Assembly: GCA_016776905.1 (NCBI GenBank)
Contig: JADHSM010000015.1
Span: forward strand, 1-64,000
DNA: 64,000 nt
Reading direction: 5' to 3'
Source of the DNA: Planctomycetota bacterium
GTDB taxonomy: Bacteria > Planctomycetota > UBA8108 > UBA1146
In this document: piece after piece, positions 46,850 to 62,159 of the stretch
How positions within the stretch are numbered: position 1 is the first letter of the stretch
How the letters are laid out: each line of letters opens with the position of its first letter
Translations under genes and position numbers: made by a program
The notes under the pieces: generated by a model
The model's input: the letters and a program-made list of their open reading frames with translations, nothing else
Database searches by the model: none
Told to the model about the DNA's origin: nothing

Positions 46850-47938
46850 ATGAAAATCGCGATTATTGGTGGCAGCATAGCGGGGCTCTCAACGGCATTA
46901 CGTCTTCAAAATAGCGGTCATGAAGTCTCCGTTTGGGAAAGAAGAAATCCTACTTCAAGCGGTGGATTCGGAATGCTGCTGGATCAAAAAACTTTGACGC
47001 GACTCTCATCTTTGGGCCTTCGCCTCGACCCCCAACTTCAAAAAGTAACAAAATACGAAGCACATGATATTCACTCCGGAAGAGTCGTTCGTCGTGGCCT
47101 AAACGGATCATTTGCGATTCAACGTTCAACGCTCATCGATCATTTAAAAAACGAAATTAAACACCACTCCTTGAATTACGATTTCGAGTTCACGCATTTC
47201 GAGCCCAATTCCGGAAACAATGTTCAGCGGGCCTGTTTCTCTAATGGTCACAAAATCGATGCTGATCTTTTCTTAGGAGCCGATGGCGTCCGATCCTCTG
47301 TGAGGAATTTACAAGTTCCAGGGCCAGATTTAACTCCAGTTAAAACTGTTGAGGTCGTCGGCATGGCTGATATGAATTCCCTGCCCGCCAAGAGTCGCAA
47401 CACGTTCAAGAAATACATACACCAAGGTAAAGGAATCGCATTTGGAATAGTCCCGTGCGCAGGCGACAAAGTGATCTGGTATTTCCAGATCGATAACAAT
47501 AAATGGCCCCAGTCACTGGGCTCTAACCATCAGAGAAACCAATGGCTGAGTGAAGAATTATCTCACTGGCCCCATCAAGTTCGCAGAATTGCCATGTCCA
47601 GTAGATTAGAGAACACACACCTCTGGAGAACAACAGATCGAGACTTGCCCTTACAATTCCATAGAGGCAATACTCTCTTAATTGGAGATGCGGCACATCC
47701 CCTCTTAACATTCACAAGTCAGGGTGTTGGCTCTTCCATTGAAGACGCGGTGATCCTTGGGGATTTACTCGACGAATACGAAAGCAGTCCACACCAAAAT
47801 TTGGACGACTGCCTTGGGGAGTTTTCTGCTATCCGAAAACCGATTCTCGAAGGCCATTTAAAAAACGGGCGTGATCTACAACAGCGGTTTCTCGGGCAAC
47901 GCCCTCACTGCATAGATACATATCCAGTGAGCGCATAA
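46850..47938 (+). CDS. FAD-dependent monooxygenase (copy 1)
   Basis: A 362-residue flavoprotein of the p-hydroxybenzoate hydroxylase type. IAIIGGSIAGLSTALRL is the FAD-binding Rossmann loop, LGADGVRSSVR the DG motif, LLIGDAAHPL the GD motif that binds the flavin ribityl. No membrane segments. AGGAG stands upstream of the ATG. Its paralogue at 50580-51674 shares length and motifs. The two flank a PLP enzyme and a secreted repeat protein in one direction, which suggests a small biosynthetic or catabolic set acting on an aromatic or heterocyclic substrate. Substrate is inference. Confidence 0.9.
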   Translation: MKIAIIGGSIAGLSTALRLQNSGHEVSVWERRNPTSSGGFGMLLDQKTLTRLSSLGLRLDPQLQKVTKYEAHDIHSGRVVRRGLNGSFAIQRSTLIDHLKNEIKHHSLNYDFEFTHFEPNSGNNVQRACFSNGHKIDADLFLGADGVRSSVRNLQVPGPDLTPVKTVEVVGMADMNSLPAKSRNTFKKYIHQGKGIAFGIVPCAGDKVIWYFQIDNNKWPQSLGSNHQRNQWLSEELSHWPHQVRRIAMSSRLENTHLWRTTDRDLPLQFHRGNTLLIGDAAHPLLTFTSQGVGSSIEDAVILGDLLDEYESSPHQNLDDCLGEFSAIRKPILEGHLKNGRDLQQRFLGQRPHCIDTYPVSA

Positions 47939-47970: not shown

Positions 47971-49161
47971 ATGAATACCCGCCGTGACCCGTTCAACTTT
48001 TCGGAAGCTTCCATCGACAAAGAACAACTCAGAAAAACGGCTTTCAATCTCCGTTGGGCAACCGTGGATACTGACGTGATCCCACTCACTGCAGGAGAAA
48101 TGGACTTCCCTGTCGCCCCCGAAATTACAGAAGCCATCACTCGTCATGTGAGTCACGGATATTTGGGATACCTCCCTGATTTGGGATTACCATCATTCAG
48201 AGAAGCCGTATCTGAAAACCTGAGGAAAAATGGCGTTCAAGCCCACCCTGATAGAATCATGGCCACTGACGGCGCGGCGTCTGCGTTAAGAATCGCATGC
48301 AATTCCGTGCTTTCCCCCGGCGACGAGGCCATCACATTTGACCCCATAGATTTCTTACTTCCTCATTGCTCAAAAATGGCTGGAGCAAAAGTGATTCGAT
48401 GCCCACTGGAAAAGGGCACAGGAAGGCTGATTCCCGATTCACTTGAGCAGCTTGTTTCTGAGAAAACAAAAGCCCTCTTAATTTGCAATCCACACAACCC
48501 AACAGGCCGGGTATTGAGGAAATCTGAACTACTTGAGATCGCAGAATTCGCCGAGCGACACCACCTTGTGATTATCAATGACGAAGTATGGTCAGATATC
48601 ATTCTTGGCTCGACTCCGATGGTTCACTTATCTTCGCTGTCTGATGAGATTAGTCAGCGCACGATCACGATTTCTGGATTTTCAAAGAGCTATGGGATTT
48701 CCGGTTTAAGGATCGGATATATCCATTGTCAAAACAAAGAGCTCTTTCATCAGATTATCGAGCGTTCAGATGTAAAAAGCACGACTGCTGGGGCTTCTGT
48801 ATTGTCGCAAGTTGCTGCTGAAGCGGCGTTACTCAACTGCTCTGAATGGCTGACCTCGTTCCGAGCCCACCTTGTAAAAATCGTGGAAGAGGGCTCTCAA
48901 CGATTATCTGGCATTCCAGGATTCAGTTGTCCCATTCCCGAAGGCACTTTCTTACTCTTCCCTGATATTTCTAAAACTGGATACGACGAAGAAACTCTCT
49001 CTAAAGAGCTCTTCAGCAATGCGAGGGTCAGCGTGGTCCCTGGAGCAGAACGGTGGTTTGGCCCCGGAGCGAGGGATCATATCCGCTTATCCGTAGCAAC
49101 GTCGATGGAGACTTTCAATGAAGCCTTAAGTCGTATTGAGATATTTTTCAAACATCGATAA
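47971..49161 (+). CDS. PLP-dependent C-S lyase/aminotransferase, MalY/PatB type
   Basis: A 396-residue fold-type I PLP enzyme. VIPLTAGEMDFPVAPEI near residue 30 is the MalY/PatB hallmark (W-x-A-D/E-M-D-F), ICNPHNPTGR is the cofactor Asn region, INDEVWSDI the Asp region and SGFSKSYGISGLR holds the Schiff-base Lys. MalY/PatB enzymes cleave cystathionine and other beta-C-S bonds; related enzymes transaminate. It begins 32 bases after the monooxygenase stop with AGGAAGAG upstream and is probably cotranscribed. Cytoplasmic. Confidence 0.92.
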   Translation: MNTRRDPFNFSEASIDKEQLRKTAFNLRWATVDTDVIPLTAGEMDFPVAPEITEAITRHVSHGYLGYLPDLGLPSFREAVSENLRKNGVQAHPDRIMATDGAASALRIACNSVLSPGDEAITFDPIDFLLPHCSKMAGAKVIRCPLEKGTGRLIPDSLEQLVSEKTKALLICNPHNPTGRVLRKSELLEIAEFAERHHLVIINDEVWSDIILGSTPMVHLSSLSDEISQRTITISGFSKSYGISGLRIGYIHCQNKELFHQIIERSDVKSTTAGASVLSQVAAEAALLNCSEWLTSFRAHLVKIVEEGSQRLSGIPGFSCPIPEGTFLLFPDISKTGYDEETLSKELFSNARVSVVPGAERWFGPGARDHIRLSVATSMETFNEALSRIEIFFKHR

Positions 49162-50579: not shown

Positions 50580-51674
50580 ATGCTGAATATAGCCGTATTA
50601 GGCGCCTCTATTTCCGGATTGGCAATAGCGCTTCGCCTCCAGAGTTCTGGACATCAAGTCTCAGTGTGGGACGGACGAAGATCATTCAGCGCGAGCAATG
50701 CTGGTTGGTTGTTCAATCATTCCTCATTGGCCCATCTCAGAGAACTCGGCATCGATCTCGCCGACATGACTCACAGGATCACTTCAGGAGAACAGATTCC
50801 CCATCACTCGAAAAATGCAGCTGCTCATTTTGAGTCGATATCCACACATGGAATCCGACAGCAGGTGTTGCACGATCGATTACTCTTCAAGCTAGGTACC
50901 AAAAATATTCATCTCGGTGCTCAATTTGATGAGTTTCAACCCCAACAAGGATACATCGTTAAATCTGCTCGCTTCCTTGATGGCCGCGAAGTGTTCGCAG
51001 ATCTCTTTATCGGTGCAGATGGCGTTGATTCAAAAGTGCGATCTGTTCAAATTCCAGGACCTCAACTGAGGCCTTTAAATATCATGGAAATTCGTGGAAC
51101 AACGACGGTCCCGGAACTTCCCCGGGAACTTGTCAAATCCTTCAAACTTTACGAAAACAACCGTCTAGGGATGAACGTATACCTGATCCCGACAGCTGAA
51201 AACGACATCAGTTGGGGTCTCCAAATTGATCTCAACCGTCATCCGCTCAAAGAGTTTCATAGCAATGGCAAACTCAATGAGATTTCAGCCTCGCTCTCCG
51301 AATTCCCAAAACTAGTGCGCAGATGCATTCCCGCTTCCTCGCTCGCCAACGGTCAAATTAGGGCATCGAAAGATCAAGAGTTTCCAGACCGATTCCATAG
51401 AGGCAATGTTGTATTAATCGGTGACGCTGCCCATCCTCTCACTTCATTCCTGGGTCAGAGTATTGATTCTTCTCTCGAAGACACGCAGGTACTGGGCGAT
51501 ATGATCGACGATTTGAGTAGAGGTAATATTGCGGATTTAGAAACGTGCTTCACTGACTTTATACGGCAGAGAAGACCCATACTCAGAGCTCGGCAAAGAT
51601 TTATAAGAAACCAAGAATCAGCACTCAAGGGTCATTTAGCCGTCAAAAATCAGAACTCAGTAGTAACTCTCTAA
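50580..51674 (+). CDS. FAD-dependent monooxygenase (copy 2)
   Basis: A 364-residue paralogue of the 46850 enzyme. IAVLGASISGLAIALRL binds FAD (the first glycines are GAS instead of GGS), FIGADGVDSKVR is the DG motif, VLIGDAAHPLTSF the GD motif. The two copies agree in layout and in many motifs (SGHQVSVWDGRR versus SGHEVSVWERR; RFHRGN before the GD motif in both). It has its own start after a terminator and leader, so it is separately transcribed. It ends ten bases before the stop of the convergent decaheme cytochrome gene with no visible terminator between. Substrate unknown. Confidence 0.9.
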   Translation: MLNIAVLGASISGLAIALRLQSSGHQVSVWDGRRSFSASNAGWLFNHSSLAHLRELGIDLADMTHRITSGEQIPHHSKNAAAHFESISTHGIRQQVLHDRLLFKLGTKNIHLGAQFDEFQPQQGYIVKSARFLDGREVFADLFIGADGVDSKVRSVQIPGPQLRPLNIMEIRGTTTVPELPRELVKSFKLYENNRLGMNVYLIPTAENDISWGLQIDLNRHPLKEFHSNGKLNEISASLSEFPKLVRRCIPASSLANGQIRASKDQEFPDRFHRGNVVLIGDAAHPLTSFLGQSIDSSLEDTQVLGDMIDDLSRGNIADLETCFTDFIRQRRPILRARQRFIRNQESALKGHLAVKNQNSVVTL

Positions 51675-51684
51675 GGGATAGTTC

Positions 51685-53820
51685 TTACTTCTTTTTGAAG
51701 ATTTCCATAGTCGCGGTATTGAGTTCTCTGATAAACGGCGAAGCGTGGTACTTATGACACAGAATGCAGTCCTGCTGAATCTGCTGACCATGACACTCTA
51801 AGCAACTTTCTTTCGACACCGACAACCAGTCGTGCCCCCCCGCACTTTTCGTTTCAGCAGGGGTGTGACAGGTATTGCACTGTCGACCTTCATCATTAAA
51901 GACATGAGACGCATGATTAAAGTGGGTGAAATCGAGATCTTTGATTTCCTTCTCATGGCCCCAATTCACTTCTTGCCCAGCGATCCCCAAGCCGACATGA
52001 CACTTCTGGCATCTTCCTGCCGAGTACTCCCCTGTGAGCTCTTTCAGGATATCTCCGGAAAACTTGTCCCTGTTTTCGTTTCGACTCTCCAATTCAATCC
52101 ATGCTTTTAGGAATGAATCCGCATGCTGAACAGGCCTGTACCACAATGACGGGCCATCGAGATACCACCCTCCTGCATTTGCCCAATCCACTCCCGTGAC
52201 AAATCTGCGATACTCATCTGCTCTCTTCTCCGATGCTCGATCTCCATAAGAATGCGCAGTATTTTCCGCAAGCATATCGTCTTCGCCCGCGAGCATGTCG
52301 TCTTCGCCGGCAAGCATATCGTCTTCGCCTGCGAGCATATCGTCTTCGCCTGCGAGCATATCGTCTTCGCCGGCGAGCATATCGTCTTCGCCGGCAAGCA
52401 TGTCGTCTTCGCCGGCAAGCATATCGTCTTCGCCGGCAAGCATATCGTCTTCGCCGGCGAGCATATCGTCTTCGCCGGCTACCATGTCGTCTTGACTGTT
52501 TTTGCCCTGCTCAACTTCGTCGACAACCGTAAGATTCAGGGGCTCTTCATTTTCAATGGCGACGAACCACTGTTCCTGAACGAACTGAAGCAAAGCATGC
52601 GGAAACTGCCCCGATAAATCGGAAAGCTCATCGAGGCTTAAATCTGCGACAGTGGGAGACATCCACCGAGCGACCCACTGTTGTAAATCTTCTTCAAGTG
52701 CAGCAGCCCATTCCGTCTGGGTCAACTGAACGAAATCTTCGACGTCTTTCAGCCTTTCGATCGGAGCCCTTTCAAGACGACTTAAGTTCAGATCAGATAA
52801 CTGATCGAAGCTGTCTCCAACTTCCCCATTGAGAAACCACCTTTTCGTCCAGGCATTGGTTCTTCCCTCGGGATATTTCGCCCAACTATATGTCTGAAGC
52901 CCATGGTCATTCAAAGTTTGGAAATCAACTTCAGGGAGTTTAAAGATTTCGATTCCCTGATTCTTTCCCTGGGCCCCTTGCCCTGATATTTCAGAAGAAT
53001 GACAACCGCCACATGATTCAGCGAAAGGCAGCACACTCATCGCTCCAGTGTTGACTTCTAAAGAATGGCATCCTGCACAAGTTGCAGGTGCTTGATCAGG
53101 AACTTCAATGAAGTGCCTCAAACTGTGAGTGCTGTGATCAAAATTAAAGCTACGCGGCTTCAGTCCATATGAATCAGAAAAATCAGCATGACCCTTTGAA
53201 AAGGAATCGAACTTTTCTTGATGGCAATTTTGACATCGTCTGTCATTCATATTCAAGAAGGTGCCCGAAGACTGATGTTCTTGGTGACATTGAGCGCATT
53301 CAGTCTCATCCTGCAACTCTGATATATCTTTTTCAGGGTACAGCTCAGCCCATGTTGCCGGATCTAACCCATGTGACTTCCGTGAATGATCACCGAGATC
53401 ATGACAGTTTACACAACCTTGGCTCCCCAGATTATCGTGGGTTCCCCCCAGCACATTCGCAAAAAGGCCACCAAAGCTATTCAAGTTCTCACTGTGACAT
53501 GCAGCGCAATCTAATTTTCCATGCGCATGAGAGAGAGGGCCTGGTGAGAATATCTCTTGTTGAAAAATCTGGCCTTCATTCTGAGTCATAGCAAAAAGTA
53601 CCAAACCTAAAGTGAGTACGAATGCACTACGAACTGTCTTGGATCTCCACCAACCTTCGGAATGCATCGGTGAACATTCACTGTCAGTATTCTGACAAAG
53701 CCCAGAAGCGGATGGTCCTCTTGAACATGGCTGCCCTGGCCGACCACACGTCCAAGGCTTATCGGGTCGGAGATAACGAGTTTTGCGAGAATCAAAAGAT
53801 CCTCGATGACCAGAACTCAT
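51685..53820 (-). CDS. Membrane-anchored decaheme cytochrome c with acidic heptad repeat
   Basis: A 711-residue protein with ten CXXCH heme sites: CAACH, CVNCH, CAQCH, CQNCH, CAGCH, CGGCH (residues about 105-275), then CQKCH, CNTCH, CLECH, CILCH (about 600-700). The start ATG 53820 overlaps the stop of the cytochrome b gene (ATGA) behind GGGAGGGG. A polar, Cys-containing N-terminus of about 60 residues precedes one membrane helix (62-79), so the heme domain lies outside. Between hemes 6 and 7, residues about 447-516 are ten exact GEDDMLA-type heptads. Histidine motifs such as HSTHSLRHF and FNHASHVF can supply distal ligands. Last gene of the redox operon; it probably takes electrons from the cytochrome b. 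Not recognised as a named cytochrome. Confidence 0.88.
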   Translation of the reverse strand: MSSGHRGSFDSRKTRYLRPDKPWTCGRPGQPCSRGPSASGLCQNTDSECSPMHSEGWWRSKTVRSAFVLTLGLVLFAMTQNEGQIFQQEIFSPGPLSHAHGKLDCAACHSENLNSFGGLFANVLGGTHDNLGSQGCVNCHDLGDHSRKSHGLDPATWAELYPEKDISELQDETECAQCHQEHQSSGTFLNMNDRRCQNCHQEKFDSFSKGHADFSDSYGLKPRSFNFDHSTHSLRHFIEVPDQAPATCAGCHSLEVNTGAMSVLPFAESCGGCHSSEISGQGAQGKNQGIEIFKLPEVDFQTLNDHGLQTYSWAKYPEGRTNAWTKRWFLNGEVGDSFDQLSDLNLSRLERAPIERLKDVEDFVQLTQTEWAAALEEDLQQWVARWMSPTVADLSLDELSDLSGQFPHALLQFVQEQWFVAIENEEPLNLTVVDEVEQGKNSQDDMVAGEDDMLAGEDDMLAGEDDMLAGEDDMLAGEDDMLAGEDDMLAGEDDMLAGEDDMLAGEDDMLAGEDDMLAENTAHSYGDRASEKRADEYRRFVTGVDWANAGGWYLDGPSLWYRPVQHADSFLKAWIELESRNENRDKFSGDILKELTGEYSAGRCQKCHVGLGIAGQEVNWGHEKEIKDLDFTHFNHASHVFNDEGRQCNTCHTPAETKSAGGHDWLSVSKESCLECHGQQIQQDCILCHKYHASPFIRELNTATMEIFKKK
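52271..52480. repeat. In-frame 21-bp tandem repeat, ten units
   Basis: Ten units of AGCAT(A/G)TCGTCTTCGCC(G/C/T)GC(A/G), coding GEDDMLA on the reverse strand, with an eleventh degenerate copy at 52481-52494. Variation is confined to third codon positions. It also creates long accidental frames on the other strand. Confidence 0.97.
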
Positions 53821-54644
53821 GATGCCCCTCCCGAAGAAAACCCAAGTACCAAAAAGATATGCAGGGCGATCAGAATAAACAGAACCGCAGTCAAAGGCAC
53901 ATGCAAGAACAGCCAACCTCTGATCCATCTTTGATGCACGATCATTCGATCAAGATCAGATTTTTCTCGAATAAGTTTATGAAAGGGCCTTGAGCTTTCA
54001 GTAGAGAACAGTATCGAAGGTGGTAAATATAATGCCAATTTTTGAACTATTGGAGTCGGAATCTCTAGCTCGTTATGCCTTTTACTATGAAGCAAACCGG
54101 GTCTGGCATTCAGAAATGGTCGAATGACTTCTGTGTAACCCATTATGATTCTCTCAGACAAAGCACCTTCTTCAACCTTGAGAACCAAAGCATCGGCTTC
54201 TTCCAATATTTCACTACGCCTGAAAGGGATTCGTGACGGATGTAAATTTTCAACGTCTGCGCGCATAGGCTTGGGCAACCAACGCATGATGAACCAACCT
54301 ATAAAGCCTGACCCCATCAATAAAAGGTATATGAAATATAAAGCAACTTCAAAACTACCTTGTGGCCACGCGAAACCAGAATGAACTAAAAACAAATATC
54401 CACTCAGTAAACCAATGCCCAAATGCAGTTGCAGCCAACTTGAAGTTTTTCCTATTGGAAGAAAAGGAAACTTCTTTCTCATTCCATATAAAGCAAGAAT
54501 GATAAAGCTGCCAAGAAGTAACCAACCGCTTTCATATGCAAGACTCACCAATTCACCCGACTTGATATCCAAGTAGTTTTGAATAACAAAAAAAACCAGG
54601 ATAAGACCCAGCAATATCAGTGGCTTTGGCTGACGGATAGTCAT
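53817..54644 (-). CDS. Small diheme b-type membrane cytochrome
   Basis: A 275-residue membrane protein with five hydrophobic helices. Helix 3 (residues about 72-92) has His in LHLG and in LVHSGF, 14 positions apart; helix 5 has His in LHVPL and in ALHIF, also 14 apart. Two helices each with two His at 13-residue spacing are the pattern of two stacked b hemes, as in cytochrome b and related quinol-dehydrogenase subunits. Between helices 4 and 5 is a cytoplasmic domain of about 110 residues. The gene overlaps the ferredoxin gene upstream and the decaheme gene downstream by ATGA, so the three are made together. It would pass electrons through the inner membrane. Confidence 0.8.
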   Translation of the reverse strand: MTIRQPKPLILLGLILVFFVIQNYLDIKSGELVSLAYESGWLLLGSFIILALYGMRKKFPFLPIGKTSSWLQLHLGIGLLSGYLFLVHSGFAWPQGSFEVALYFIYLLLMGSGFIGWFIMRWLPKPMRADVENLHPSRIPFRRSEILEEADALVLKVEEGALSERIIMGYTEVIRPFLNARPGLLHSKRHNELEIPTPIVQKLALYLPPSILFSTESSRPFHKLIREKSDLDRMIVHQRWIRGWLFLHVPLTAVLFILIALHIFLVLGFSSGGAS

Positions 54645-56314
54645 CCTGTAATCTTTTCAATGACGCGCGTCACCTTTGAAATGTCTGAGAAATCAACTCT
54701 GTGAAGAGCATCATGCGGGCATGCATTTGCACAAGCAGGCCCAGATGGTTGATCGATACACAAATCACATTTCGTGGCTTTAAGTGCGGGCTTCCCCGTT
54801 TCGAGATTAATGATGGGATTCCCGGCAGCATCATGTATTTCAACAGATCTAATGTTGTTGTATGGGCACGACTCTACACATGTACCGCAACCAATACATT
54901 CATTGGTAGTAATAATTACATTACCCGTATTGGCTTCTCTGTGAATCGCACCTGTTGGGCAACCCACAAGACATACAGGGTCAGCGCAATGCATACAGGC
55001 AGTTGCCACCATGAGCTCTGCATGACGGTGTCCTTCCCTAATAAAGCGAGGGTTACCTCCATGCGTGACGGCACAAGCTTTAACGCAGTCATCGCAATCT
55101 GTGCACCGATTCAAGTCGATAATCATCGTCTGGTTGCCGTTGACAATTCGCCTATCCACGAAAAAATCTAGCAACTCGCGAGATATATATCCTTCTTCAT
55201 TCGACCTGCCAGTCTCAATACCTTTTTGGATTTCCGGCAACACATGTTCGTTAAAATCTGATTTCGGAATAATCACTAGATCTAATGCACCCACGGCTCT
55301 AATCGTGTGGAAGGCAACTTCGTCCTCACCCCGTTCGTCCATCCGTGTCAACTCTTTTAATCCGTAAACATCTCCGGGACGCAGATACCCTGTCGTCGAT
55401 TCTTGGCCACCATCTTTTCGAGTCACTCTCGCAAATCCATTTAGAACTACATAGAGTCCGTCCATATGATGGCCTTGATTCAGGACAACTGCTTCCTGAT
55501 CCAACAGTGACTTGTCAGAATTTATCACCTTCCTGAAATTGCGATTCCAATCATCTGAACCGTGTCTTTCAAAGACGGCCTTCGAAGATATAGTTCTCTG
55601 AACATCTTCTGATAGATTCTGAATCATATTCACAAAGGAAAATATTTGGTGCCTACGATCTCCTATGATGTCCTCTAGGAATCGTTCGAATTCATTCGAA
55701 CGAGCAAGTAAATCACGAACGCCTTGCCAACGAATTTCGACCAGCTTGCAATCAGTACCTGCAAATACAGATGCCGTCCGAGGGCACCTTCTAAGAGCGG
55801 CGATTTCACCAAAGATTTCGCCGATCCCAATTCTTCGTGTCAAATTTTGGCTGACAAACTTGTCAATATCAGTATTTAATCTCGGCTTCCGACCTGCACT
55901 CCCAGATATTTCTTCTTGGCTCACAACTCGACTGAATGTTTCCTGTGTTTTTTTCTTTTTGAACAACTGACCGATTGCAGAAAACCAACTTCTTTTTTCT
56001 AATTTTGATTTTCGAGCAAAGCGATGCTCTTGAGATTGCTCAAGGTTTACTCTGACCGTTCCCTCGATTGGAATAAGAACAGAGCCACCGTAATCACCTT
56101 TTCTGAGAATAATTTCTGACTTTTCGTAAGAAACTATCCGAGCATCATTTTGCAATATGTCCTCAAATGATGATCCGCGCTTTTTGTAATCACTCAATAC
56201 GATGGAAAGTACCGAGTTCACCTTTAACCAATCCAGAATTTCTTCCGGAACGGGCACCTTGCTAAAGCAATGCTCCCGGGAGTCTATTTCCTGGTTGTTG
56301 GTTTCATTACGCAT
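54641..56314 (-). CDS. Two cyclic-nucleotide-binding domains fused to a four-cluster ferredoxin
   Basis: A 557-residue cytoplasmic protein (no signal). CNB domain 1 (about residues 60-230) includes EIILRKGDYGGSVLIPIEGTV, a charged insertion of about 65 residues, then the phosphate-binding cassette GEIFGEIAALRRCPRTASV with the FGE and RTA residues needed for cNMP. CNB domain 2 (about 270-370) has the fold (VLNQGHHMDGLYVVLNGFA) but its cassette is not canonical. From about 395 comes a DmsB/PsrB-type ferredoxin with four 4Fe-4S motifs: CTDCDDCVKAC, CMHCADPVCLVGC, CIGCGTCVESC, and CDLC...CANAC. It overlaps the cytochrome b gene (ATGA) and should feed it electrons, perhaps under nucleotide control. 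Similar CNB-ferredoxin fusions occur in other bacteria to my recollection; function unknown. Confidence 0.9.
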   Translation of the reverse strand: MRNETNNQEIDSREHCFSKVPVPEEILDWLKVNSVLSIVLSDYKKRGSSFEDILQNDARIVSYEKSEIILRKGDYGGSVLIPIEGTVRVNLEQSQEHRFARKSKLEKRSWFSAIGQLFKKKKTQETFSRVVSQEEISGSAGRKPRLNTDIDKFVSQNLTRRIGIGEIFGEIAALRRCPRTASVFAGTDCKLVEIRWQGVRDLLARSNEFERFLEDIIGDRRHQIFSFVNMIQNLSEDVQRTISSKAVFERHGSDDWNRNFRKVINSDKSLLDQEAVVLNQGHHMDGLYVVLNGFARVTRKDGGQESTTGYLRPGDVYGLKELTRMDERGEDEVAFHTIRAVGALDLVIIPKSDFNEHVLPEIQKGIETGRSNEEGYISRELLDFFVDRRIVNGNQTMIIDLNRCTDCDDCVKACAVTHGGNPRFIREGHRHAELMVATACMHCADPVCLVGCPTGAIHREANTGNVIITTNECIGCGTCVESCPYNNIRSVEIHDAAGNPIINLETGKPALKATKCDLCIDQPSGPACANACPHDALHRVDFSDISKVTRVIEKITG

Positions 56315-56335: not shown

Positions 56336-57349
56336 TCAATTTTTATATTCAGACGGATCAGGAAGTAACGAATCAATGCCCGCTAAAGATGATCCATCCG
56401 ATGTAGCCGAGAAATTGTCCAAAAACTCTCCCGCTTTTTTCGAAGCAGGAATCAGTGCTTCTCTGGCTTTAAAACTCAACCCCACTGTTTTGAGATATTG
56501 AGCAAATTCCAACATACTTTCGTCCTTGGATGCAGCGGCTACAGATATGAACTGCTTCCGTAAGTTTGAAAATCTCTTTGCATGTGTTTTCACATAAATA
56601 TTCATCGCGTTAGCATTACCTATGGAGCTCAGAAGAACTTCTATTTCAGCAACCATACCCACGACATATAGAACTCTTTTACGTTCCGCCGAAGCAACTT
56701 TGTTTTCTTTCCCATTCGTATAAAAATTATTATGGCGCATATTTCCTTGGCTCCATGAAAGGAGCTCGAAATTTGAAACAGCAGGGTGCCCACCCGTCGC
56801 CACCAGTTCTTCATGATCAATCACGTGACAACTCACGCAGTTCCTCGCGATGTCTGCGATCATGCTAGGGCGCAACATTCCAGCGGCTTCTGAAGCCTTC
56901 CACCGCTTTGCGGCTTCTGCTTCCGTTTCTTCATCCTCTTCCTTGCCGCTAAACTCCCCGTGTACAGTCACCCAGCCCATTCCTGCACCATGGCACGACT
57001 CACACGACACTCCTGCTTCGACAGTCATTTCGTTGTGCTCGGAGTCCCACATTTCTGTCCCATGACAACTCGTGCAAAGTGATTCTTTGACTCGTCTTAA
57101 TCCCATTTTATCAATGATCTCTTTCGCCTTGGGAGATCTGGGCATATCAGTAATCGTTTTATAGTGAACCGTATTCTTCCAAACTTCTGCGGAATGCTTG
57201 TGACAATCTACGCACTTTTCAACTCCGACGATCGCCTTATGGTTGAAACCTGGGCCCGTCACTGGCTCCGCTGATTCATCTAGATTTGGCCCATTTACAG
57301 CCAATAGGGAGATACTAACCAAGCCAATTAAAACTAACTGTTGAATCAT
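56336..57349 (-). CDS. Tetraheme cytochrome c (c554-like)
   Basis: A 337-residue exported protein with signal peptide (MIQQLVLIGLVSISLLAVNG). Four CXXCH sites: CVDCH with the nearby EVWKNTVHYKT, CTSCH, CESCH and CVSCH, all within the first 180 residues. Spacing and the GxxCVDCHxxxxxxWxxxxH motif resemble cytochrome c554/multiheme electron carriers of the HAO and NrfB type. The C-terminal 140 residues are helical without heme. It sits 21 bases upstream of the CNB-ferredoxin gene and 50 bases downstream of the flavoreductase. Likely a periplasmic electron shuttle of the operon. Confidence 0.88.
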   Translation of the reverse strand: MIQQLVLIGLVSISLLAVNGPNLDESAEPVTGPGFNHKAIVGVEKCVDCHKHSAEVWKNTVHYKTITDMPRSPKAKEIIDKMGLRRVKESLCTSCHGTEMWDSEHNEMTVEAGVSCESCHGAGMGWVTVHGEFSGKEEDEETEAEAAKRWKASEAAGMLRPSMIADIARNCVSCHVIDHEELVATGGHPAVSNFELLSWSQGNMRHNNFYTNGKENKVASAERKRVLYVVGMVAEIEVLLSSIGNANAMNIYVKTHAKRFSNLRKQFISVAAASKDESMLEFAQYLKTVGLSFKAREALIPASKKAGEFLDNFSATSDGSSLAGIDSLLPDPSEYKN

Positions 57350-57399: not shown

Positions 57400-58665
57400 T
57401 CAGGCATCGATTTCTACATCGCCTTCAGGCATTCCAACACACGACAGGCAATTGCCAGCATCTGGTTCAGCCGAAGGTTCATCTTCGTAACTTATCTTCC
57501 CGGATACCACTTTCACTTGGCATGTTCCACAACTGCCGGCTCTGCAACTGCTCTCTATTTCGACGTCATGCTCTTCTGCCATATCGAGAATTGAACTCGA
57601 GCCGTCCCATGGGACGGTGACGTCACTCTTGGAGAAATGAATCTTTCTAGTTTTAGAATTCAATTTTCCCTGATCTGTTTTTTGATCGCCACTTTCTGGA
57701 TCTTTCTTTTTCTTCACCGAAGCAGGTCCAAATGCTTCCAACAGAATATCTGAAGACGTCACTCCTGCTTCTTCTAATGCGGGAACCAACGCTCCCATCA
57801 TCGGTGGTGGGCCACACAGATAAAACTGTGCCTCAATATGGCCAACCGTATCCTTGATCGCGTCAATGCTGAGGAAGCCGGTCTTGATGCCGTCCTCTAA
57901 TACGGAGTCTTCTTTTGGTGAACTGTAATATGTGTGCAGTGATACATTCGGATTTCCCTCCGCCAATTCTTTGAGGCTTTGAGCGAATGCGTGATCGTCT
58001 GAATTTCTAACCGCATGAAAAAAGTGACAGACTCTGTCTATTTTTTTATCGCAGATCGCCTCGAGCATGCTCAATAAAGGAGTGACTCCAATTCCCCCAG
58101 CAATAAACACCGCAGGTCGCTGATCATGACGATCTAGGCAAAACTTGCCTGCTGGAGCTTTCACTTCGATGGTTGAGCCAATTTCTAAATCCTCATGAAA
58201 GTATGAAGATCCCCGCCCTGGTGGATGACTTGTTCCTGGTGGTGGCGGAACCTTTTTTATAGTCACTCTGTAAGTATTGGAAATCGGATCTCCTGAGCTG
58301 AGCGAATAGGTACGAATCAAATGCTTTGATTCGCCAGGAATTTGGAATTTGAATCCCAAATGTTGGCCCGGCTCATATGGACAAATCGCTTCTTCGTCTA
58401 AGGGGCTCAGATAAAAAGAGCATATGTCTTGAGCTTCCATCACCCGATTCGACACTCTAAATCTGCGATACCCTTTCCATTTCAGACTTCCCGAAACGAC
58501 CTGGGTTTTCTCCTGTCGCAGCAACTGATCCTTCAGATCTTTTGCCTCTAACTGGAACCGCTGCGCTCTTAACCTTGATTCCCAAATGGAGTTTACGATC
58601 CCCAAGATGGCATCTATGAAAAAGAGCGCCAGCAGTGCGATGGCGACGTAAAATACTACTTCCAA
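57400..58665 (-). CDS. Membrane-anchored FAD/NAD(P) oxidoreductase with C-terminal 2Fe-2S domain
   Basis: A 421-residue protein with an N-terminal membrane helix (VVFYVAIALLALFFIDAILG) and coiled linker, then a ferredoxin-NAD(P) reductase module: IRTYSLSSGD binds FAD, FIAGGIGVTPLLSML and FYLCGPPPMM bind NAD(P). From about 335 a plant-type 2Fe-2S domain has Cys in SSCRAGSCGTCQ and in NCLSCVG. This is the Hmp-less, Hcr/CDO-reductase order (FNR then 2Fe-2S), reversed from NqrF, though both share a membrane anchor. Start is TTG at 58665 with GGGGAG upstream. It lies ten bases after the barrel gene. If the module faces the cytoplasm it could oxidise NAD(P)H for the chain. Confidence 0.9.
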   Translation of the reverse strand: MEVVFYVAIALLALFFIDAILGIVNSIWESRLRAQRFQLEAKDLKDQLLRQEKTQVVSGSLKWKGYRRFRVSNRVMEAQDICSFYLSPLDEEAICPYEPGQHLGFKFQIPGESKHLIRTYSLSSGDPISNTYRVTIKKVPPPPGTSHPPGRGSSYFHEDLEIGSTIEVKAPAGKFCLDRHDQRPAVFIAGGIGVTPLLSMLEAICDKKIDRVCHFFHAVRNSDDHAFAQSLKELAEGNPNVSLHTYYSSPKEDSVLEDGIKTGFLSIDAIKDTVGHIEAQFYLCGPPPMMGALVPALEEAGVTSSDILLEAFGPASVKKKKDPESGDQKTDQGKLNSKTRKIHFSKSDVTVPWDGSSSILDMAEEHDVEIESSCRAGSCGTCQVKVVSGKISYEDEPSAEPDAGNCLSCVGMPEGDVEIDA

Positions 58666-58674
58666 AATACTCCC

Positions 58675-60135
58675 CTAAAACCTCATGAGGATTTCTGCTC
58701 GAAGTCCGTATCCACTTTCTCCGCCTTCTTCTTTTTTGGTATAAGCATCCATCTGCAACATGGTTCTTCCAGTTAACTTTTTCTGGTATCGGGAGCCGAA
58801 TGCTCCTGCTGCAGGGCCGTCTCCTTCGAGAGGTGAACGCCCACCCAATTCAAAGACCAGGTTTGAAGCACCTTCATCTATTGAAAATTGGTAACCTACT
58901 GATCCCCCATATGAATCATCTGCTCTGTTACCGAGTGCGGGTTTATATCTACCCAATCCAGCTGCCGCAAATAACAAACCCGCTTTCCCGAGAGGTCCGC
59001 CATTCGTCTCTCCACGTGCAGCCGAAGCGAACTCATCAATCCCCAGAAAGAACGTGGCGTAGGCGTTATCCATTGTGCCTGCGGGGGTCGTTGACGCTTC
59101 CGCAAACAGCAATGTGCCATCGCTGACAGCGGCATTGTCCGGATCCGCAGCCATGGAACTGCACAATCTAATCGTCGTGTTAAACGTATTCGTTTTTGAT
59201 TTAATTCTTTGAGAAGATCCCAATCCCACGAACCAACCAGAACCCCCTTCATCCTCCGGGGCTTCCACATGTACCACATCGAAATCAATTGTTCTTTTGT
59301 ATGTATCTGCTTCAGCGGAGAAGGAAAGATATCGCGATCCCGTGGACAATAAATTGTTATCGCGACTGACCTCGTCCCATCCGGCAATGACGGTCATACG
59401 AGTTGTCGCTGTGCCCGGTATAGAAACAAATCGAGTCACACCGACAGCATCCATTGAGTCATTAACGAGTAGTCCGTCTTGTAGATCGACTCTCCAACGG
59501 CCCACGCTAAATCCGTAATCTAACTTCTTAGTTCCATCTGGATCCAAAACGGGAAACAACTCTGAAAGTTCTCCCTCGAAAAAGAAAGTCGTAATGCGGT
59601 CATTGACCTCATCGACCCAACCTTCTTCACTCTCCGGTTCAAATACATACCTAGAAAAACTACCTCTTTGATGTAATGGCTGCATACCTATCAGGAAGCG
59701 TTCTGTTCCTGTCAATTGGAGGTTGCCGAACAGATCCATTCTCTGGGCCCACTCGACGATGCGATCACCCGCACCCGCTGGCTCTACGACATTGATCCCC
59801 GATCTCAAATTACCGTAGACCCAAAACGAAGGTCTCCAGACTGCTCCTCCGGGAACATCGAACCCTCGCTCTAATCTCCCTGTCTCCATGAGACCCGGTC
59901 CGATTTGAATAATCGGCGGATGGGGCTGGATGAGGGATTCGTCTATCAATGGGATCGGGTGATCGGGCAGCCGACTAGGACTCTCGTCTTCTTGAGCCCA
60001 TGCCGGAGACGCCACACACGTAGTGATCATAAGGATCAATATTCCGTCTACAAATTGCCGAGCCATAGAAGCCTTCTTGTTTGCAATTCTCGGCCTTGCA
60101 GAATTTCTGGTTGGGAATAGTTGAGAGGTCATCAT
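58675..60135 (-). CDS. Outer-membrane beta-barrel-like protein of the redox operon
   Basis: A 486-residue exported protein with a long n-region and signal (FVDGILILMITTCVASPAWAQ). Its ATG overlaps the stop of the pentaheme gene (ATGA); ATG 60066 is a possible later start. The mature part shows amphipathic strands with aromatic ends and loops rich in Gly/Asp, and ends with Phe (ILMRF), as expected for an outer-membrane barrel. A Pro-rich segment (about residues 55-80) precedes the barrel. No family recognised. By its place between multiheme cytochromes it could act as the porin part of a porin-cytochrome conduit, like MtrB in Mtr systems; that role is inference. Confidence 0.72.
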   Translation of the reverse strand: MMTSQLFPTRNSARPRIANKKASMARQFVDGILILMITTCVASPAWAQEDESPSRLPDHPIPLIDESLIQPHPPIIQIGPGLMETGRLERGFDVPGGAVWRPSFWVYGNLRSGINVVEPAGAGDRIVEWAQRMDLFGNLQLTGTERFLIGMQPLHQRGSFSRYVFEPESEEGWVDEVNDRITTFFFEGELSELFPVLDPDGTKKLDYGFSVGRWRVDLQDGLLVNDSMDAVGVTRFVSIPGTATTRMTVIAGWDEVSRDNNLLSTGSRYLSFSAEADTYKRTIDFDVVHVEAPEDEGGSGWFVGLGSSQRIKSKTNTFNTTIRLCSSMAADPDNAAVSDGTLLFAEASTTPAGTMDNAYATFFLGIDEFASAARGETNGGPLGKAGLLFAAAGLGRYKPALGNRADDSYGGSVGYQFSIDEGASNLVFELGGRSPLEGDGPAAGAFGSRYQKKLTGRTMLQMDAYTKKEEGGESGYGLRAEILMRF

Positions 60136-62159
60136 TTTGACCCTTCTTCACTTTTTGAAGTCACTGTTTTCCTTTGGGCGATAACGACCGCGCCATCGAC
60201 CAACTTCTTTGCGAGCTCTCTCGGTGTGAGATTGTAGTCAAACCCTACGTGCATCGTCTGGTGAATGAGATTTACAGGTAATGACTGCGATATAAATCGA
60301 GCTTCAATCGTATAGGGTCCTTCTCCCGTTAACTGCTCAGCATCAACGAAGTAGGATGCCGTTCTCTTACCCAGTGGCTCGATCCCTCGTCGATGTTTCC
60401 TCATACCTTTTGGATGCCCATAGATGTTATTAGGCCTGGAAGCAGGTCGAATAAATGGAAGTGCTGATACTGAACTGTTGATCGTCAGCACTTGCTCTCT
60501 GTCGCCTCCCCGAATGTTCCTAGACATGAACTTCGACTGCAAATTAAAGAGCTGTTGGTCGAGTTGAATCTCCCCGCTTCGAACATATAAGGAGAATGAA
60601 TCCCTAAGATCGCCATTCGGATCCCGATCACCGGACTGGAAGACAATGTTTCCTGCTGAATCCGAGACATCGATTTGAACAACGAACACACGTTCCGCAT
60701 CGAATCCCGTCGGGAGGTTGTGGCCTTTTGTCAGATTCTTGACATCTATTTCAAAGCCGAGTCCGTCTTCGTCATCATCTGTGATTCGTATGTCAGAAAG
60801 CCCAAATCCTCTTTTTAGAACTTCTATTCTTTGAGTCTTCGCCCACTCCAACAGTTCTATCTGATCATCAATGATATCCCGGGCATCGTACCGGTCGTCG
60901 ATGGCCGCCCAGCTCTCCGGAAACTCGTAATCATCCGGGCAACTATCTTCGAATTGGTCTGTGCCCCATCCTGCTTCCACATCGAACAGAATCCACTCCG
61001 ACAAATCTTTGAACTCGTTCGCCTTTTTGTTGACCGGGAAAATACCTTCATGAATCAGTGAATAATCGGGGCCCGCAAAAAAGTGATTGGTCAGTTTCCT
61101 GGGAGCAGATTCTTTCCCTCCGACGACCGCTGCTGGTCCCCACTCATAACCGGTAGGTATCCCCTGCTCTTTTCCCATATGGCAATCATTGCAAGTAATG
61201 CCTTCTTCGGCAGCAGGTGAATTTCGGTACTCGGTCAACAACTCATGTACCCGTAATCCATTGGGCGCAAATACCTCATGACAAGTTCCGCAAAAAGCGG
61301 GGGTTGTCAGTTCGAAAAACGGTTCGATTTCTCCATGAATCGCACGCCCTACGCTATCTCTGTCAGTATTCACTTTAAATTGCTTCGTATCAGCGAGGAC
61401 TCTCGCCAACTCTTCATTACCCAAGGCACCCTTGACGGAATCGAAAATGTCACCTTGATCGATACCAATACGCCCTGACACTTTTCTGTAACCGGCACTC
61501 ATTCGGTGGCAAGTGACGCAAGTGATACCTTCTCTTGAAGCCGGATGGCGATCGAGATTTGAGGCACTAAATGGTTCTCCAATATCGGATCCCACTGGGG
61601 CATGACAACGGAGGCAAAAGTCTCCATTTGTGGTACTAGTGCCCACATTCATGGCATTTTGCATCGACATCATCATCGGGCTCAACTGCGAATATGCGTG
61701 CTGAGATACAGACCATTCCTTGTATTGCTTGGGATGGCAAAGAGCGCATTCATCCGCTGAAGGGAAATTGCTGGCGGCAAAAATCTTTTCATGTGCCGCA
61801 GAAGCCTCATCTTTTTTCTCGGGCTCCTCTTCTTTTCCAACCTCTGACGTATCGTCACCCAACATGTCGTCACCCAACATGTCATCGCCCAACATGTCAT
61901 CGCCCAACATGTCATCGCCCAACATGTCATCGCCCAACATGTCGTCTTCCAACAAATCATCAGAACCAGATGGATCTTGCTGAGCGGGAGGATCTTGCTG
62001 AGTAGGTGGATCTTGCTGAGCGGGTGGATCTTGATAAAGAGCCGTGGCTTGCTGCGATATTCCAAGGAATAAAAATCCCACAATTGAAAAGCTCAACAAC
62101 AATATACTCAGAGATATACGACTATCATTCGTATTTCCTGTAGACCTTTTGTCCTTCAT
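60132..62159 (-). CDS. Secreted pentaheme cytochrome c with acidic pentad repeat
   Basis: A 675-residue exported protein, first gene of the redox operon. Signal peptide (LSILLLSFSIVGFLFLGIS), then three QDPPxQ repeats and six LGDDM pentads (residues about 70-99). Five CXXCH sites follow: CALCH (with PKQYKEWSVSQHAYS), CLRCH, CVTCH, CGTCH and CNDCH, in the first 340 residues, with the layout of the c554/HAO-like multiheme family. The C-terminal 240 residues lack hemes and look like a beta-sandwich (GFEIDVKNLTKGHNLPTGF). The heme-free half may bind the partner or surface. Upstream are two inverted repeats (62229-62283) that may control the operon. Confidence 0.88.
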   Translation of the reverse strand: MKDKRSTGNTNDSRISLSILLLSFSIVGFLFLGISQQATALYQDPPAQQDPPTQQDPPAQQDPSGSDDLLEDDMLGDDMLGDDMLGDDMLGDDMLGDDMLGDDTSEVGKEEEPEKKDEASAAHEKIFAASNFPSADECALCHPKQYKEWSVSQHAYSQLSPMMMSMQNAMNVGTSTTNGDFCLRCHAPVGSDIGEPFSASNLDRHPASREGITCVTCHRMSAGYRKVSGRIGIDQGDIFDSVKGALGNEELARVLADTKQFKVNTDRDSVGRAIHGEIEPFFELTTPAFCGTCHEVFAPNGLRVHELLTEYRNSPAAEEGITCNDCHMGKEQGIPTGYEWGPAAVVGGKESAPRKLTNHFFAGPDYSLIHEGIFPVNKKANEFKDLSEWILFDVEAGWGTDQFEDSCPDDYEFPESWAAIDDRYDARDIIDDQIELLEWAKTQRIEVLKRGFGLSDIRITDDDEDGLGFEIDVKNLTKGHNLPTGFDAERVFVVQIDVSDSAGNIVFQSGDRDPNGDLRDSFSLYVRSGEIQLDQQLFNLQSKFMSRNIRGGDREQVLTINSSVSALPFIRPASRPNNIYGHPKGMRKHRRGIEPLGKRTASYFVDAEQLTGEGPYTIEARFISQSLPVNLIHQTMHVGFDYNLTPRELAKKLVDGAVVIAQRKTVTSKSEEGSK
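61861..61950. repeat. In-frame 15-bp tandem repeat, six units
   Basis: Six units of AACATGTC(A/G)TC(G/A)CCC, the last ending TTCC, coding LGDDM-type pentads on the reverse strand just after the signal peptide of the pentaheme cytochrome. Four inner copies are identical. Confidence 0.97.

Follow-up and report, generated by a model that had tools for sequence, protein, structure and literature searches.

A 64,000-nucleotide stretch of contig JADHSM010000015.1 (GenBank assembly GCA_016776905.1) from a Planctomycetota bacterium, hereafter the window, encodes a ferredoxin that carries two cyclic-nucleotide-binding (CNB) domains. We propose, with a probability of about 0.6, that this CNB-ferredoxin is the cytosolic Fe–S relay of an envelope-spanning system of the PCC4 type, and that its first CNB domain (CNB1) is a working receptor for a cyclic mononucleotide. 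We consider binding of a cyclic mononucleotide by CNB1 very likely; that binding directly gates electron flow is favored with less confidence. The ligand in the window organism is probably cyclic AMP (cAMP). The domain make-up, the conserved pocket, the conserved gene cluster, and the cyclase adjacency found in some lineages were established by sequence.

The CNB–CNB–ferredoxin open reading frame (ORF) occupies positions 54641–56314 on the minus strand and encodes 557 residues, starting with an ATG at 56314. The initial annotation had given these coordinates correctly; the strand is our correction. The chain comprises an N-terminus (residues 1–49), CNB1 (~50–220, with an insert at ~91–157), CNB2 (~245–375), and a four-cluster ferredoxin part (~396–545). 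Pfam searches yielded cNMP_binding (E = 5.6e-27, in three stretches), several Fer4 families, and PF13247 (E = 1.5e-11), and the ferredoxin part contains 16 Cys residues in four motifs, which bears out the fusion of two CNB domains with a four-cluster ferredoxin described at the outset. The label "DmsB-like" fits only approximately, since the HydN (71 bits) and AegA (70 bits) models of NCBIfam outscored DmsB (61 bits). Among proteins of known structure, the closest in sequence is HycB3 of the hydrogen-dependent CO2 reductase (E = 3e-19). The model of the whole protein, calculated with 59 aligned sequences, had a mean pLDDT of 79.5 and a pTM of 0.77. A transcription-factor reading was rejected, with zero helix-turn-helix families among the Pfam matches up to E 0.1.

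Conservation was read from 65 full-length sequences, the window protein and 64 relatives, which were left after removing duplicates, fragments, and a sister family. The sequences dropped (L numbers label the stretches) were L078 and L074 (fragments), L023 (cut), L031 and L032 (sister family), nine duplicates, and L001, L002, L003, and L081–L085 (own copy, other own-genome matches, or ferredoxin-only). The relatives show 32–90% identity to the window protein, and 54 of the 64 do not exceed 40%. None of the 16 cysteines varies in any sequence (65/65), and a chance ORF or a pseudogene was rejected on these grounds.

The phosphate-binding cassette of CNB1 is encoded at 55766–55813 on the minus strand (residues 168–183, FGEIAALRRCPRTASV) and shows the motif FGEIAAL..PRTASV. 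Gly169 and Glu170 are present in 65/65 sequences and Arg179 in 62/65, and position 180 is Thr in 45/65 and Ser in 9/65; the Gimesia clade has Val there. The spacing from the Glu to the Arg is 9, which is likewise found in CNB domains of the PKA/HCN type. CNB2 retains the CNB fold and is homologous to CNB1 (hhalign probability 96%). It has its own conserved G-x-x-E and no conserved Arg at the pocket position. Both CNB domains have this Arg in the two sister-family proteins aligned (L031 and L032), so CNB2 of the window's family may have lost it secondarily. The initial annotation had read CNB1 as keeping the phosphate-binding residues and CNB2 as having lost them, an observation confirmed here. 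It had also named a survey of orthologues as a way to refute its reading; the cassette proved to be conserved in the relatives, and the nucleotide reading survived. Conservation of the pocket in divergent sequences from seven groups, while CNB2 of the same proteins lacks the Arg, supports the role of CNB1 as a receptor.

The structural comparison pointed in the same direction. The CNB1 model was closest to an MloK1 domain with cyclic GMP (cGMP; VIA-align Z 16.7, root mean square deviation (rmsd) 2.2 over 131 residues), with other MloK1 entries among those tied, where rows within 1 Z count as tied. This match and the adjacency of class III cyclases described below both support the receptor role. 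CNB2 aligned with CNB-B of PKG (Z 14.8, rmsd 2.3 over 128 residues). Foldseek placed the tandem CNB proteins PKA and PKG on top by E-value, but with low TM-scores.

CNB1 contains some 65 extra residues (~91–157) ahead of the phosphate-binding cassette. The insert noticed in the initial annotation turned out to be a family-wide trait, and we rejected the idea that it is an oddity of the window. The stretch corresponding to residues 85–160 measures 70–98 residues in 62/65 sequences and 210–215 in the other three, which hold an FHA domain inside it; Glu125, within this stretch, is conserved in 64/65. FHA domains were detected in seven of ten proteins scanned, the ten having been picked for being long or divergent: inside this stretch (L070, L073, and L076), between CNB1 and CNB2 (L025, L027, and L028), and at the N-terminus (L012). 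FHA domains bind phosphothreonine, so these fusions may have given the carrier an additional type of signal input, at three different sites.

The same three positions are also suggestive of protein–protein docking, and a CNB2 that is conserved without its pocket Arg is what one would expect of an interaction surface. This leads to an alternative in which CNB1 is a real receptor, and the output is the presence or absence of the complex: the nucleotide would control its assembly, membrane docking, or stability, or recruit a partner, rather than act on the electron-transfer step. We consider this alternative unlikely. The CNB domains share a chain with the clusters, and the ferredoxin gene overlaps the cytochrome b gene by 4 bases, which fits a stoichiometric component of the path.

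Class III cyclases were found close to the gene cluster. The first adjacent one was seen at a Gimesia-type locus (L114), where a divergent neighbor gene encodes FHA and class III cyclase domains. We then searched every stretch for cyclase-like ORFs, using cyclase queries and a hidden Markov model for which some of the cyclases it later recovered had served as input, and tallied 69 stretches. This yielded nine cyclase-like ORFs. Eight of the 69 stretches have one at 400 bases or less from a cluster gene, in four lineages: the Gimesia clade (divergent FHA-cyclase; L062, L066, L071, L072, and L114), G152 (divergent cyclase; L113), G245 (divergent cyclase-FHA; L110, with the full read at L118:7707-8933), and SAR324 (7TMR-DISM plus cyclase on the same strand; L053). 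The ninth, in L109, is 3.2 kb from the cluster. PF00211 confirmed seven of the eight adjacent cyclases; L072 ends at a contig edge and has the FHA part only. The Gimesia FHA-cyclase was also observed at L120:5510-7273. Based on each genome's own PF00211 count, where the counts in one genome set look like lower bounds near 11, the expected number of adjacencies within 1 kb was 0.19 for the 69 stretches vs. the eight observed. In a thinned set of 47 loci, picked by eye, 0.12 was expected vs. four lineages observed (P ~9e-6, or 2e-4 when the cyclase-rich SAR324 genome with its 55 cyclases was left out). The catalytic residues of the L053 and G245 cyclases look canonical.

The genomes themselves gave a similar picture. 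The window genome has three PF00211 genes, two with canonical adenylate-cyclase residues. One of these two is an FHA-GAF-class III cyclase on a different contig (L087:460-2043), the architecture of which resembles the FHA-cyclases beside the Gimesia clusters, and it is a candidate partner of the CNB-ferredoxin. Among Planctomycetota, PF00211 occurs in 46/47 genomes with the CNB-ferredoxin or its sister vs. 162/247 genomes without (Fisher p 8e-7, with kinship ignored). A class III cyclase is present in 46/48 genomes holding the scanned loci, a set that overlaps the Planctomycetota set through close relatives in both, so that the tallies are not additive. The cyclases of the window organism, the FHA-cyclase architecture, and the co-occurrence with PF00211 at the genome level all support the receptor reading.

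The CNB-ferredoxin gene is part of a run of seven minus-strand genes. The other six encode a pentahaem c-type cytochrome (60132–62159, 675 residues, 5 CXXCH, Cytochrome_C554 E 1e-9), an outer-membrane beta-barrel that is OprD/Occ-like by predicted fold (58675–60135, 486 residues), an NAD(P)H reductase (57400–58665, 421 residues) with FAD_binding_6, NAD_binding_1, and a C-terminal Fer2 domain, a tetrahaem c-type cytochrome (56336–57349, 337 residues, 4 CXXCH, Cytochrome_C554 E 1e-11), a membrane protein that is a probable di-haem cytochrome b (53817–54644, 275 residues), and a decahaem c-type cytochrome (51685–53928, 10 CXXCH, Cytochrome_C7 and others). The hydrophobic N-terminus of the reductase, judged by eye, is probably a membrane anchor. 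The 747-residue decahaem ORF overlaps the cytochrome b gene, so the true start is probably internal. In the membrane protein, His74 and His88 are conserved in 68/68 sequences, and His248 and His262 in 66/68, with two gaps. These form two H-x13-H pairs, the pattern of two b-haems, within the motifs W70-H74-H88 and W244-H248-H262 (W-x3-H-x13-H twice); S112-G113-G116 (S-G-x-x-G) is also present. Among the homologues, 4 CXXCH are present in 55/58, 5 in 23/25, and 10 in 42/70; the other 28/70 decahaem homologues have 0–6, and many of them are probably truncated by the shortness of their stretches. The barrel model (pLDDT 77.6) matched the OprD/Occ porin 4frt_B with Z 27.8 and an rmsd of 3.1 over 325; no MtrB-like barrel appeared in the 50 fold matches listed, which does not exclude them. 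A short acidic repeat is shared by two of the cytochromes, as DDMLAGE tandem repeats in the decahaem protein (52270–52490) and DDMLG in the pentahaem protein (61850–61980). Beside the operon, two related FAD-dependent monooxygenase-like ORFs lie around an aminotransferase-like ORF (46850–47938, 47971–49161, and 50580–51674; labels by eye). These three ORFs have no counterpart among the gene groups that many loci share.

The loci were obtained from one pattern scan of genome contigs seeded on the window protein. The scan yielded 54 loci, of which 49 match beyond the ferredoxin part (L074 and L078 are fragmentary) and five (L081–L085) match in the ferredoxin part only. Judged by record titles, the 49 loci span seven phyla or major groups: Planctomycetota, Verrucomicrobiota, Nitrospinota, SAR324, Pseudomonadota, Poribacteria, and Latescibacterota. 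In the Planctomycetota sample, 47/294 genomes match the single window sequence at 1e-30; the profile search found 44/288 genomes at 1e-60, 27 of the window type and 17 of the sister family by a score-based split. Neighbor homologues (E 1e-5) were present in the 49 loci as follows: membrane protein 48, decahaem cytochrome 46, reductase 40, tetrahaem cytochrome 38, porin 26, and pentahaem cytochrome 25, with some gaps at contig ends and others not. The relay, the cytochrome b, and the decahaem cytochrome thus make up the firm core. The next gene group beyond the seven is present in 10 loci. In the sister family, a NuoG-like Fer2_4/Fer4 part is fused N-terminally to the CNB-ferredoxin (L098:6306-9143), or the CNB-ferredoxin gene (L099:10018-11682) adjoins a NuoEF-like gene, and a decahaem ORF is nearby in 7/11 sister stretches (L098–L108). 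The occurrence of two unrelated NADH modules, the FAD/2Fe-2S reductase and the NuoEF/NuoG-like one, on one relay type supports a connection with NAD(H).

From these results we infer binding, the ligand, gating and the sign of its effect, the order of the path, and the direction of the electrons. Electrons would pass from NAD(P)H through the FAD/2Fe-2S reductase to the four [4Fe-4S] clusters of the CNB-ferredoxin, and onward through the di-haem cytochrome b and the periplasmic deca- and tetrahaem cytochromes to the pentahaem cytochrome and the outer-membrane barrel. A class III cyclase would raise the nucleotide level, and CNB1 would bind the nucleotide via Glu170 (ribose) and Arg179 (phosphate). 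In the bound state, the lid and the C-helix would rearrange, and CNB2, which itself would not bind, would relay the change to the ferredoxin part. Docking of the ferredoxin to the reductase or to cytochrome b would be altered, and electron flow would be opened or closed. The outward direction is favored, because electron transfer to NAD+ from outside the cell would have to proceed against the membrane potential. Direct allosteric control of electron flow, suggested in the initial annotation, is partly supported by the conservation of the pocket and, beyond what that annotation had, by the genomic links to class III cyclases. The nucleotide is predicted to bind CNB1 and would act on electron flow rather than on assembly or localization.

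A number of observations weigh against a nucleotide-gated PCC4-type relay. Arg179 is replaced by Tyr in L065 and L067 (Kiloniellales) and by Gln in L060 (Nitrospinae). A quick tree places these losses in two lineages. The genomes concerned are cyclase-rich (14, 21, and 14 cyclases for L065, L067, and L060), so binding is not required everywhere; these Arg-loss variants are useful natural controls. No cyclase-like ORF was found in 60/69 stretches, nor in the window. The adjacency test is post hoc, as an adjacent cyclase had already been noticed when it was designed, and both phylogeny and genome size confound the co-occurrence at the genome level. The Gimesia cyclase retains the metal-binding Asp, Asn, and Arg and has atypical residues at both base-selecting positions (four aligned: L062, L066, L071, and L114), and CNB1 of the same clade has the Val at position 180, so that the cyclase product may be other than cAMP; the G152 cyclase has Val at the catalytic Asn position. 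The porin is absent from 23/49 loci and the pentahaem cytochrome from 24/49, many with full flanks; Verrucomicrobiota loci mostly lack both genes. The outer-membrane part is therefore not universal. Gimesia loci with full flanks (L062, L066, L071, and L114) have no reductase gene and must rely on another electron donor. The modeled OprD-like pore may be too narrow to hold or sheath a cytochrome, and the view of PCC4 as an extracellular conduit may have to be revised.

The Arg179 losses in lineages that retain the relay and its neighbors, together with the 60 stretches without a cyclase, are what one would expect if CNB1 were structural or vestigial, bound nothing in the cell, and kept its pocket through fold constraints. 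We regard this as improbable: Glu170 is invariant and Arg179 nearly so, while no Arg is conserved in the CNB2 pocket of these proteins, and cyclase adjacency is far above expectation. A reversed flow of information, in which the Fe–S part senses redox state or oxygen and alters the free nucleotide or a partner cyclase via the CNB domains, could draw on the cyclases beside the cluster and on FHA domains in both cyclases and CNB-ferredoxins, which suggest a physical signaling complex, but it is very improbable, as the invariant 16 cysteines and the company of cytochrome b (48/49 loci) and the decahaem cytochrome (46/49) are what a carrier would be expected to show.

In its widest form, the proposal of a nucleotide-gated relay extends to the seven phyla or groups: a cyclic nucleotide on the relay would act post-translationally as the switch for the entry of reducing power into the multihaem system, with an adjacent cyclase and an FHA phosphothreonine input in some lineages. 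We give this extension an even chance. Respiratory chains are usually regarded as being regulated at the level of transcription, by substrate supply, or by redox back-pressure. If the carrier itself contained a receptor for a second messenger, the electrons that leave or enter the cell would be switched directly and rapidly. PCC4 clusters, at present poorly understood, would gain a testable physiology, and an electrode output reporting a cyclic nucleotide might become possible.

The gene content of the operon is not novel, as it was already published as PCC4 (He et al. 2017, PMC5566968). In the passages of that paper covered here, PCC4 comprises a porin, 4-, 5-, and 10-haem cytochromes, and a five-helix membrane protein with two WX3HX13H motifs and SGXXG, with a redox gene upstream of the tetrahaem cytochrome gene and, in subgroup II, a pfam13247 Fe–S gene upstream of the membrane protein. 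By gene content and motifs alone, the window cluster matches subgroup II: its cytochromes have 4, 5, and 10 CXXCH, its membrane protein has both WX3HX13H motifs and SGXXG, its PF13247 Fe–S gene is upstream of the membrane protein gene with the 4-base overlap, and its porin is modeled as a beta-barrel with best matches of the OprD type. He et al. placed PCC4 in Proteobacteria and Planctomycetes and hypothesized that an extracellular donor feeds electrons to the quinone pool (PMC5566968). In contrast, the path proposed here would have NAD(P)H at one end and be controlled by a nucleotide, and relatives of the Fe–S protein were also found in Verrucomicrobiota, Nitrospinota, SAR324, Poribacteria, and Latescibacterota, often without the porin. 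The term "nucleotide-binding" is absent from the main text of PMC5566968, and the passages covered do not mention CNB domains, cyclases, or FHA domains; in the covered part of PMC13264449, PCC4 is mentioned once. A relation to the Verrucomicrobia porin–multihaem cytochrome clusters was not established from the covered part of PMC5615132, and the Opitutaceae-type L045, L046, L051, and L068 have no homologue of the window porin or pentahaem cytochrome within their stretches. Searches of the open-licence literature by title or abstract start found no cyclic-nucleotide-binding ferredoxin, two papers in which the relevant terms occur together use them in unrelated contexts, and nucleotide control of the conduit was not found in the open-licence literature searched. 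As far as this literature goes, the nucleotide receptor on the relay, its conservation, the cyclase neighbors, and the FHA gains are new.

Individual parts of the CNB-ferredoxin have familiar counterparts. Its ferredoxin part aligns over the full length with four-cluster ferredoxins of the HydN/AegA/HycB type, which are not known to have CNB domains. The two tandem CNB domains, with the pocket residues and fold of CNB1, resemble the regulatory tandem of PKA and PKG and the CNB domains of MloK1 and HCN; unlike these, the output is a ferredoxin instead of a kinase or channel, CNB1 has a 65-residue insert, and CNB2 lacks the pocket Arg. The low TM-scores indicate that the two domains are arranged differently from those of PKA and PKG. 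Rv0998 of Mycobacterium tuberculosis, a cAMP-controlled protein acetyltransferase, is another bacterial CNB domain fused to an enzyme domain and is among the structural matches listed for CNB1, although it has an acetyltransferase output and a single CNB domain. In MtrAB-type conduits, the cytochrome is threaded through the barrel; the window barrel is predicted to be OprD-like. In the covered literature on Shewanella, a cyclic nucleotide governs respiratory electron transfer through cAMP-CRP, which acts on transcription, whereas here the receptor would sit on the electron carrier itself.

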